Shown here: piece after piece, positions 23,540 through 30,443 of the stretch
Numbering within the stretch: the first letter of the stretch is position 1
How the letters are laid out: each line of letters opens with the position of its first letter
DNA from: Alphaproteobacteria bacterium
GTDB taxonomy: Bacteria > Pseudomonadota > Alphaproteobacteria > UBA9219
DNA: 47,266 nt
Assembly: GCA_028692635.1 (NCBI GenBank)
Contig: JAQUWX010000009.1
Span: 1 to 47,266, forward strand
Reading direction: 5' to 3'
Notes under the pieces: generated by a model
What the model was told of the DNA's origin: nothing
Database searches by the model: none
Seen by the model: the letters and a program-made list of their open reading frames with translations, nothing else
Translations under genes and position numbers: made by a program

Positions 23540-23899
23540 ATGAAGGAAAAGAATCTCAAAAAACTGTTTGGATTCAAGGTGCAGCAGTTGCGTCACCTGA
23601 AAGGGCTTACCCAGGACGAATTGGCGGAAGCTATCGACCGAAGCGTCGATACCATCAGCAATATCGAAAGAGGGTTCAGTTCTACCAGAATTGAAACAGC
23701 TTCTCATTTAGCAAAAGCATTGGGAGTTTCTCTGCCGGAGATGTTTGAGTTCTCAGGCTCTTCGGAAGACAAATCTAAAACTCACAGGAAAGAGGTTGAG
23801 CGGCTGATGGCTCTTCTCATGCAATGTCCGGCGCAGCATCTTCCTGTCCTCTCCAGGCTTGTTGAGCAGGCCGTTCAGCTTACTCACGAGTCGGAGTAA
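23540..23899 (+). CDS. Xre-family HTH transcriptional regulator
   Basis: FGFKVQQLRHLKGLTQDELAEAIDRSVDTISNIERGFSSTRIETASHLAKALGVSLPEMFEF; ATG 23540 preferred over 23504. Confidence 0.88.
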   Translation: MKEKNLKKLFGFKVQQLRHLKGLTQDELAEAIDRSVDTISNIERGFSSTRIETASHLAKALGVSLPEMFEFSGSSEDKSKTHRKEVERLMALLMQCPAQHLPVLSRLVEQAVQLTHESE

Positions 23900-26636: not shown

Positions 26637-26907
26637 ATGATTGTTTTTGGCATTTGCGGAAGTCCTAGACAGGGCGGCAATTCTGAATGGGCATTGGAAC
26701 AGCTTTTGAAAGCGTGTGGGGGCTATGGCTGTCAGACAAACAAAATTATGCGATGGATCTTCGCCTAAGGAAAGCGCCGCAATGAAAATTGTGAGTGATT
26801 GTGCGATAAGGCGAGCCTTGATTGATAAGGGGGCTGCTATTTAACTTGAGCAAGTTATTGCTGCGATTTATAAAATCATTATAAGTGAGAAAAAGAAGGA
26901 CTCTTAA
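26637..26907 (+). pseudogene. Remnant of an NAD(P)H-dependent FMN reductase / iron-sulfur flavoprotein gene
   Basis: MIVFGICGSPRQGGNSEWALEQLLKACGGYGCQTNKI then stop at 26768; downstream short frames with in-frame stops; end boundary uncertain. Confidence 0.55.
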
Positions 26908-27001
26908 CGGAACCGGTCCCCCTACGCTCGCTGCGCGAGCTTCGGCGGGACATAAGATTTTCTAAGGCGCGCTTTACGCGCCAAGAAAATCTAATGGTGG
27001 A
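26905..27001. repeat. 97-bp exact direct repeat, copy 1
   Basis: taacggaaccggtccccctacgctcgctgcgcgagcttcggcgggacataagattttctaaggcgcgctttacgcgccaagaaaatctaatggtgga, identical to 27965-28061. Confidence 0.95.
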
Positions 27002-27088
27002 CGGAACGGGAAAAAGATCGGACCACGATAACCTTGACTATTTGGCCAGAATTAGAAATCTCCTTGAAAGAAGAGCGGTTCAAGAAGG

Positions 27089-27358
27089 CTATCCAAAAAG
27101 ATCGGAGTGCGATCCTATTCGATAAAGGCGAACCTCCACTTCTGTAATATCATAGATCATAAGCCAATCCGGCTCTATATGGCATTCCCACAGCTCAGTA
27201 TATTCGCCGGATAGTTTATGAGGACGATTCTTGAGTGGTAGCGGCTTATCGTATAACAGAAGATCAATGATTGTCTGCATCTTTCCGATAGCCTTTCCAC
27301 GCTTGACGGAAAGCTTAAGGTCTTTTTTGAATGTCTTCGAGACAAAAAGCGTTTTCAT
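27089..27358 (-). CDS. yafQ: YafQ-family type II toxin (RelE superfamily)
   Basis: MKTLFVSKTFKKDLKLSVKRGKAIGKM...HKLSGEYTELWECHIEPDWLMIYDI...RIGSHSDLFG. Confidence 0.93.
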   Translation of the reverse strand: MKTLFVSKTFKKDLKLSVKRGKAIGKMQTIIDLLLYDKPLPLKNRPHKLSGEYTELWECHIEPDWLMIYDITEVEVRLYRIGSHSDLFG

Positions 27359-27609
27359 GATAGCAGGTCGTCAACCATCTGCTTCGACGTTTTATACCGC
27401 TTGCCTTTGCCGGTCTTAACTTCCTTGATGGCCTTAAGTGTTGCCTTGTTAGGAATCCGAACATCAAAAGGTAAGCCTTTATTCAGAACCACCTGACTCA
27501 AGAATATAGAAATAGCATCCGTCGTTTTCATGCCAAGCGAACGAAAGATCTTCTCTGCGGACGCCTTTAATGCTGGCTCGATTCGAGCATTCACAACTTC
27601 TGTTTTCAT
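27355..27609 (-). CDS. dinJ: DinJ/RelB-family antitoxin
   Basis: MKTEVVNARIEPALKASAEKIFRSLGMKTTDAISIFLSQVVLNKGLPFDVRIPN; 4-bp overlap with yafQ; start at 27609. Confidence 0.93.
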   Translation of the reverse strand: MKTEVVNARIEPALKASAEKIFRSLGMKTTDAISIFLSQVVLNKGLPFDVRIPNKATLKAIKEVKTGKGKRYKTSKQMVDDLLS

Positions 27610-27629
27610 GGTTGCCGCCTTTTTTAGAT

Positions 27630-27647
27630 GTATGACATTTGTCATAC
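27630..27647. promoter_or_regulatory. dinJ-yafQ operator palindrome
   Basis: gtatgac-attt-gtcatac perfect 7-bp arms just upstream of dinJ ATG. Confidence 0.7.
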
Positions 27648-27814
27648 AGCGTAACACAAATCGCCACTCTTTGCAAGCGGCGCATATATTCCTTTTAACT
27701 GAAGCAAATCTCGTCGGTTTTTTATAAAAGCGAAAGCTGAATCTCGATGGTTCGCATAAAGAGGGGGACGATACTATACTATTTCTGCTCTTCGACGAAG
27801 ACTTGACGAGTCTT

Positions 27815-27873
27815 AAAACGGAATCAAGTCACGCAGGGCATAAGATTTTCTACGCTTCGCTTGCGAAGCGTGA
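27815..27873. repeat. Divergent third copy of the repeat element
   Basis: aacggaa...ggcataagattttcta shared with the 97-bp repeats, followed by its own hairpin acgcttcg-cttg-cgaagcgt. Confidence 0.55.
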
Positions 27874-27964
27874 GTCATGGACCTCGACAATACCCTCCGA
27901 GCCGTGAAGCGGCGCAATAGCGCAAAACAATAGACAAGGGCATTGAGGTAATCAGGAAAAGTTA

Positions 27965-28061
27965 TAACGGAACCGGTCCCCCTACGCTCGCTGCGCGAGC
28001 TTCGGCGGGACATAAGATTTTCTAAGGCGCGCTTTACGCGCCAAGAAAATCTAATGGTGGA
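27965..28061. repeat. 97-bp exact direct repeat, copy 2, overlapping 3' end of tRNA-Ala
   Basis: Identical to 26905-27001; last 7 nt are the CCA and 3' acceptor end of the tRNA. Confidence 0.95.
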
Positions 28062-28130
28062 GCCAAGGGGGATCGAACCCCTGACCTCAACAATGCCATT
28101 GTTGCGCTCTCCCAGCTGAGCTATGGCCCC
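28055..28130 (-). tRNA. tRNA-Ala (anticodon GGC), CCA encoded
   Basis: Minus strand GGGGCCATAGCTCAGCTGGGAGAGCGCAACAATGGCATTGTTGAGGTCAGGGGTTCGATCCCCCTTGGCTCCACCA; cloverleaf arms and loop ATGGCAT. Confidence 0.95.
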
Positions 28131-29355: not shown

Positions 29356-30297
29356 TTAATTGGACCCGTGGATTATGTCTTCCCAGGCTTTAAGGACTGC
29401 GGTTTTGAATGTTTCCGGCGTGTAGGACGCCAGCGTTTTTTGGCAGGCTTCGTGGTAAAGCGCCAGCGTTTCCGAGTCTTTGCCGGAAGAGGCCATGTCG
29501 ATCGCTCGTTTCAGTTGCGACAGGCAAATCGGAAAATCGTCCTCGTCGGCCCAGAAGCCGTTTTCTGGTTTTGCATATTCGCGGCCTCCGACTCCTGTGA
29601 AGCCTGCTACTACGCAGCCTGCGGACATGGCTTCAAGAGGGGTCATGCCAAAGCCTTCCAGGCGGCTTAGGGATAAAAATACGGATGACTCTCCTAGTAA
29701 TCTTGCGGTTTCCATTTCGGTTTTGTCTTTGATTATTTCCCAATCCCAGTCTCTGTATTCCGGGTATAAAAATCTGAACATGTCTCGGATGTATATCGCT
29801 TCAAGAGCGCGTTTTCTTGGAATATAGCTTATGCGTTTTTGCTTCGGCATGGGATGAAATACGTTCTTGTCTATGGCGCAGGGAATTACATATGCCTTCA
29901 ACTCGGGGTGGCGAAGGGTGGCGTGGTCATAGATGGTTTTGCTGCTGCAAAGTATATGTGTGACGCCATATTCCGCGTATCCTGAGGACTCTCCTATTCC
30001 TAAGGCTCCGTAAAAATGGTTCTGCGAATAGACGATTTTCTTTTGCGGCCAATTCTTTACCGATGCCAAAAGTTGCGGCTGGTCCTCGGGCAGGATGAAG
30101 CATTGGTCGGGGTTAGGGACAAGGTATCCCTGGCCTATTACGGGGACATTCGTGCTGAACCAGGTCGGTCGGCGCCCCTCCTGCTCGAACACTGTTACCT
30201 CGTGTCCGGCCTCAATAAGCGACTCAGCCATGCGGTAATAGCACTTTATGCCGCCGTTAATTACGACTGCTGGGGGGCCTATGAAAACTATATTCAT
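29356..30297 (-). CDS. Glycosyltransferase (GT-B, GT4-like)
   Basis: MNIVFIGPPAVVINGGIKCYYRMAESLIEAGHEVTVFE; SVFLSLSRLEGFGMTPLEAMSAGCVVAGFTGVGGREY. Confidence 0.88.
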   Translation of the reverse strand: MNIVFIGPPAVVINGGIKCYYRMAESLIEAGHEVTVFEQEGRRPTWFSTNVPVIGQGYLVPNPDQCFILPEDQPQLLASVKNWPQKKIVYSQNHFYGALGIGESSGYAEYGVTHILCSSKTIYDHATLRHPELKAYVIPCAIDKNVFHPMPKQKRISYIPRKRALEAIYIRDMFRFLYPEYRDWDWEIIKDKTEMETARLLGESSVFLSLSRLEGFGMTPLEAMSAGCVVAGFTGVGGREYAKPENGFWADEDDFPICLSQLKRAIDMASSGKDSETLALYHEACQKTLASYTPETFKTAVLKAWEDIIHGSN

Positions 30298-30443
30298 TGG
30301 AATCCTTAGGATAAAGCGCCTCGGGAAGGGAAAGAGTCGACATACATCATAAAGTAACAGTAAACCTCTTGCCAGAGAGGCTATAGAGTGCCAAAAAGAT
30401 TGGAGTTTTTCCTCCATGGTCCATTAAGCAGCAGGTAAAATAG

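Follow-up and report, generated by a model that had tools for sequence, protein, structure and literature searches.

Tycheposons are cargo-bearing elements inserted at tRNA genes, and some of them do not have a recombinase of their own. Genomic islands that are anchored at tRNAs are well known (PMC6917214), and the term tycheposon occurs in PMC10872708. In Micavibrio, tRNA-flanked islands carry lambda-type integrases and addiction modules (PMC3189940). Palindromic REPs with a GTAG or CGTC tag, including CGTC-1 of Micavibrio, have also been described (PMC3733652). Here, we describe a duplicated sequence at a tRNA-Ala(GGC) gene in a 47,266-nt stretch of DNA (the window; contig JAQUWX010000009.1) from the draft genome of an alphaproteobacterium (GCA_028692635.1), along with the family of elements to which it belongs.

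The duplicated sequence is a 97-bp direct repeat (Table 1). As the initial annotation had stated, the two copies are identical: in a pairwise comparison within the window, 97 of 97 bp matched. The spacing from start to start is 1060 bp, which leaves an interval of 963 bp, and an exact repeat of this length at this spacing is far beyond chance. It was also correctly noticed that copy 2 overlaps tRNA-Ala(GGC) by the last 7 nt of the tRNA (TCCACCA, 28055-28061) and that copy 1 has the same 7 nt without a tRNA body. An intact tRNA is present at one boundary of the unit; at the far boundary, the tRNA sequence amounts to TCCACCA only. The identity covers these 7 nt, the element, and about 5 nt past the element's conserved end, and it breaks off abruptly at either side. 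Both copies can form a pair of strong hairpins, which the initial annotation had not noticed. Along the tRNA strand, TCCACCA is followed by hairpin B (CATTAGATTTTCT ... AGAAAATCTTATG) and then by hairpin A (TCCCGCCGAAGC ... GCGTAGGGGGAC).

Table 1. Features at the tRNA-Ala(GGC) locus, in coordinates of the window
Feature	Position	Strand	Remarks
Repeat copy 1	26905..27001	-	identical element, no tRNA body (TCCACCA only); model R1, 71.1 bits
Hairpin A, copy 1	26916..26950	-	
Hairpin B, copy 1	26951..26996	-	
YafQ-family (RelE superfamily) toxin	27089..27358	-	
RelB/DinJ-family antitoxin	27355..27609	-	probable start ATG at 27609; longest ORF from GTG at 27657
Possible degenerate remnant of a third element	27833..27862	-	80% over 30 nt; model match not significant
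Repeat copy 2	27965..28061	-	7 nt of tRNA-Ala 3' end plus two-hairpin trailer; model R1, 71.1 bits
Hairpin A, copy 2	27976..28010	-	TCCCGCCGAAGC...GCGTAGGGGGAC
Hairpin B, copy 2	28011..28056	-	stem starts with CA of the tRNA's CCA, paired with ATG
tRNA-Ala(GGC)	28055..28130	-	intact

We considered whether copy 1 might be the end of a different tRNA, but none of the tRNA ends that we compared in this genome matches CCCGTTCCGTCCACCA, and we dropped this idea. The sequence before copy 1 (CCCGTTCCG) also had no match among the tRNA 3' ends compared. By eye, there is no target-site duplication in the flanks of copy 1 (CCCGTTCCG / AGAGTCCTTC). We rejected intrinsic termination as the function of the hairpins, as a simple scan of both copies gave no terminator. 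Just before copy 1, a stretch of 19 nt imperfectly repeats the final part of yafQ (84%; 27011-27029 and 27095-27113) and is possibly a recombination scar. A short truncated ORF (26638-26768) adjoins copy 1 and looks, by eye only, like the beginning of a protein from the flavodoxin/FMN-reductase family.

The repeat belongs to a family of palindromic elements with two hairpins, in which the first stem starts at the CCA of the tRNA itself; this family, too, was not noticed in the initial annotation. The genome is a 1.87-Mb draft in 120 contigs, with an estimated contamination of 5.98%, and we read the 3' flanks of most of its 44 tRNA genes. Searching for the repeat elsewhere in this genome turned up family members, and five tRNAs carry the two-hairpin unit immediately at their CCA: tRNA-Ile(GAT), Lys(CTT), Leu(TAG), Leu(CAG), and Ala(GGC). 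Single palindromes that begin at the CCA or include it are present at many other tRNAs. In an alignment of ten members, seven base pairs have changed on both sides, and shifting the partner strand by 1 to 3 columns abolishes this covariation signal. Both hairpins of each copy fit a covariance model (R1) at 71.1 bits per copy, a score that is partly by construction, as the model was built on ten sequences with this repeat among them. Copy 2 is anchored at the CCA of an intact tRNA, and copy 1 is not. Rfam has no family for the two-hairpin element, and its exact pattern had no match in viral contigs.

Other pairs of elements in the genome are 67 to 85% identical, versus 100% for copies 1 and 2, so the making or homogenizing of this pair appears to be recent relative to the family. 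The identical pair would mark a recent copying or homogenizing event, much as the initial annotation had argued (a recent event or gene conversion). One element copy sits close to the end of another contig (C22). The ~14 nt before it resemble the end of tRNA-Ala(CGC), with a 1-nt gap, and this tRNA is 16 kb away on the same contig. We do not claim a second island there: the contig does not encode an integrase, and its genes read, by eye, as core metabolism.

The element is also found in relatives. The model matched 23 of the 33 genomes of the order, and 30 of 36 inspected matches start exactly at the CCA of a tRNA; since the model starts with CCA, it favors matches that begin with those three bases, but not tRNA-adjacent ones. 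Among these are 18 of all 19 matches in the near-complete genome G029, across many isoacceptors. The elements at different tRNAs of G029 form two groups (68 to 95% alike within groups and 50 to 64% between them), which makes it probable that copies spread, or underwent conversion, between tRNA loci. A class-wide sample gave strong matches in 7 of 189 other genomes; among 12 matches inspected, 8 start exactly at the tRNA's CCA, and a ninth overlaps tRNA-Tyr by six bases. Many genomic copies unrelated to tRNAs, which would have refuted the initial annotation's reading, were not found: the other copies are overwhelmingly linked to tRNAs. The named genomes that share the element pattern include Micavibrio MAGs. 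A hairpin-B-like sequence is present in a Parcubacteria MAG (L057 602-651; PCWD01000025.1), and no tRNA was found near it.

Like the GTAG/CGTC REPs (PMC3733652), these elements are short, extragenic, multicopy palindromes with complementary stems, and CGTC-like palindromes adjoin some hairpin-A-like sequences in relatives (L016, L018, and L174). Unlike those REPs, the element is ~90 bp, combines two different hairpins, and is anchored exactly at the tRNA's CCA. A terminal GTAG or CGTC tag is absent; the element's ends read CCATTAG... and ...GGACCGGTTC.

The interval between the copies holds what appears, from family matches, to be an ordinary member of the DinJ-YafQ family of type II toxin-antitoxin modules. 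The genes are in antitoxin-toxin order and overlap by 4 nt. The antitoxin matches the curated families PF04221 (60.5 bits; cutoff, 22.4) and TIGR02384 (78 bits; cutoff, 45.65), and the toxin matches PF15738 (103.8 bits; cutoff, 30). The toxin also aligns nearly end to end with a solved YafQ (4ml2, over residues 7 to 89). However, its score for the stricter NCBIfam model of YafQ, TIGR00053, is 65.9, which is under the cutoff of 87.25. No integrase is encoded in 27002-27964, and there is no transposase in the interval, so the initial description of a toxin-antitoxin pair without an integrase is accurate. The interval has no second copy in the genome; its nearest partial matches, in G014 (73%) and G032 (66%), have neither a tRNA nor an element nearby. 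As in tycheposons, cargo is present at a tRNA gene, but the unit is much smaller and has no recombinase; this comparison is with the general description of tycheposons.

In three relatives (G013, G016, and G018), a glycosyltransferase-like protein that is 55 to 58% identical to the product of 29359-30423 in the window adjoins tRNA-Ala(GGC), so the upstream side of the locus is orthologous. At this glycosyltransferase-tRNA-Ala locus, the relatives have neither the repeat nor the toxin-antitoxin pair. In all of the genes examined from family relatives, the element is absent after tRNA-Ala(GGC), and one member of the class has other palindromes there. Because the interval also has no second copy in the genome, the repeat pair and the toxin-antitoxin pair appear to be lineage-specific additions at tRNA-Ala. 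The comparison of this locus across relatives, which the initial annotation had proposed, is informative in part: the repeat and the toxin-antitoxin pair are missing, but the relatives belong to other genera, since the collection covers a single genome of this genus, and do not offer an empty site with one repeat copy.

Other insertions at tRNA ends have displaced the same element. In most cases, an element that has no intact tRNA comes after a 3' fragment of one. For example, displaced elements follow a fragment of tRNA-Thr(CGT) in G011 and of tRNA-Leu(CAA) in this genome, and by eye, those in G014 and G009 are preceded by 3' halves of tRNA-Val and tRNA-Thr. This is clearest on contig C68, where tRNA-Cys (23585-23655, minus strand) is followed by a 414-amino-acid integrase, a G2P-like replication protein, and a 14-nt copy of the tRNA's 3' end; after this copy comes the two-hairpin element (19337-19263, minus strand), which is displaced by 4.2 kb from tRNA-Cys. 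The G2P replication protein of this 4.2-kb island (L201 8264-12656; G000:C68:19263-23655) is filamentous-phage-like. On contig C51, an integrase comes after tRNA-Met(CAT), which we take to be the initiator, and a 15-nt copy of the tRNA's 3' end lies 10.6 kb on. Besides the integrase, this 10.6-kb island (L186; G000:C51:241-10935) encodes an AAA_15 (OLD-like) protein and a STAND-like NTPase, which are possibly defense cargo. At tRNA-Leu(CAA), the 21-nt tRNA 3' end is repeated 185 bp on and is followed by displaced hairpins. At tRNA-Pro(CGG), Thr(CGT), and Val(CAC), the 3' end and/or the trailer is directly repeated downstream over 111, 62, and 26 bp, respectively; thus, duplication of tRNA ends or trailers is frequent in this genome.

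We surveyed 42 tRNA loci for downstream copies of the 3' end, allowing one mismatch and treating copies of 10 nt or shorter as background. Copies of at least 14 nt (14 to 21 nt) were present at five loci (Met, Pro, Val, Cys, and Leu), and all of the others had copies of 10 nt or shorter. On tRNA sequence alone, tRNA-Ala(GGC) is in the background class, with 7 nt kept in copy 1; the case for this locus rests on the hairpin element and not on the tRNA fragment.

A noncoding unit of ~165 to 185 bp is also present at tRNA 3' ends: directly after tRNA-Leu(CAA), Thr(CGT), Pro(CGG), and Gly(CCC) on contigs C25, C24, C113, and C66 (L206, L192, L194, and L189, respectively), and in G011 (L144). It contains a palindrome that includes the CCA, a hairpin such as ACAAAACAGTCCGGGGGACTGTTTTG (Leu, Thr, and Pro), a terminator-like hairpin, and a short 3' copy of the same tRNA, which is 19 to 21 nt at Pro and Leu and shorter at Thr and Gly. 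This unit looks like a tiny nonautonomous element that targets tRNAs. Contig C95 of G011 (L063/L017) has tandem units, each ending in the 3' end of tRNA-Gly(CCC) before a two-hairpin element.

The tRNA-Ala locus resembles Islander-type islands with a displaced tRNA fragment (PMC6917214) in that there is an intact tRNA at one end, a direct repeat that takes in the last 7 nt of the tRNA at the other end, and accessory cargo that is absent in relatives from other genera; true examples of such islands in this genome are those at tRNA-Cys and tRNA-fMet. It differs from them in its size (~1 kb), in the absence of an integrase, in that only 7 nt of the tRNA are duplicated, and in that most of the repeat is a hairpin element beyond the tRNA. 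The initial annotation's reading, a minimal island with an att-like duplication, therefore stands in part: relatives are without the repeat and the cargo, and the genome has real tRNA islands with integrases and duplicated 3' ends, in which displaced elements look like copy 1. However, most of the 97 bp is a repeat family that trails tRNAs rather than an attachment core.

As the most likely explanation, we see about an even chance that a small unit was inserted at the 3' end of tRNA-Ala, with the element as a shared end, so that one copy is on the tRNA and one is detached. The two-hairpin element would normally sit on tRNA 3' ends in this lineage, with the CCA starting its first stem, and a ~1-kb unit with the RelB/DinJ-YafQ pair would have been added, probably recently, at the 3' end of tRNA-Ala(GGC). 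Copy 2 would then be the element that was kept on, or supplied to, the tRNA, and copy 1 would be the element left on the far side, detached, with only TCCACCA. The interval may have arrived like the genome's other insertions at tRNA ends, either via an integrase in trans (integrases are encoded elsewhere in the genome and could act in this way) or as a tandem insertion of two units with this left end in common. Such a history fits repeated insertion of small mobile DNA at tRNA ends. The five CCA-anchored elements in the genome, its duplications on C68 and at tRNA-Leu(CAA), Pro, Thr, and Val, the CCA anchoring across the order and the class, the state of the locus in relatives, and the identity of the two copies all argue for insertion. 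On the other side, only 7 nt of tRNA are duplicated, versus 14 to 21 nt in the five clear cases; the interval is without an integrase; CCCGTTCCG is unlike any of the tRNA 3' ends compared; a target-site duplication is not seen; and in G014 and G032, neither tRNAs nor the element adjoin the relatives of the toxin-antitoxin pair.

The data do not firmly separate insertion from movement of the element or from gene conversion or recombination. We think it unlikely that the element moves by itself or is copied whole, in the manner of a REP or MITE, in which case copy 1 would be a recent copy of the tRNA-Ala element placed ~1 kb away and the toxin-antitoxin pair would be incidental. The extent of the identity (the element, only 7 nt of tRNA, and about 5 nt past the conserved end) fits this explanation, as do the two groups of elements in G029, which imply spread or conversion between tRNA loci, and the sporadic presence of the element in other families of the class. 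However, a displaced tRNA 3' end accompanies most elements that have no intact tRNA, which is what insertion at a tRNA predicts, and neither a target duplication nor a transposase was seen at the interval. It seems quite improbable that two older elements were homogenized by gene conversion, or that homologous recombination between them brought in the interval or will remove it: identical 97-bp direct repeats 1 kb apart are a plausible substrate for recombination, and the identity stops sharply at both ends, but a tRNA-type element at copy 1 is not explained without an earlier insertion or duplication. A short-read contig misjoined through the repeat is very improbable, even for a draft of 120 contigs with some estimated contamination and with the C22 element near a contig end, because the contig continues through the two copies, whose flanks differ on each side, and the upstream flank is syntenic with relatives.

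Whichever event made the pair, the CCA-anchored family is more interesting than the toxin-antitoxin pair. We found no description of a CCA-anchored repeat in tRNA trailers in the part of the open-access literature that was searched, which is weak evidence that such anchoring is new. We tentatively suggest, while leaning somewhat against it, that the element might be an undescribed mobile palindromic family that targets tRNA 3' ends, takes the CCA into its own stem, and leaves the tRNA intact; it might spread between alphaproteobacterial tRNA loci, with adjacent cargo such as toxin-antitoxin pairs forming recombinase-free tRNA cassettes.

If tRNAs across the order carry a covarying hairpin element fused to the CCA, then the termination and trimming of pre-tRNAs would be affected. 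This would also bear on how islands recognize tRNA ends and on the buildup of small cargo, toxin-antitoxin pairs for example, at these sites. The duplicated copies at tRNA-Ala provide a concrete locus for testing movement of the element, recombination, or displacement.
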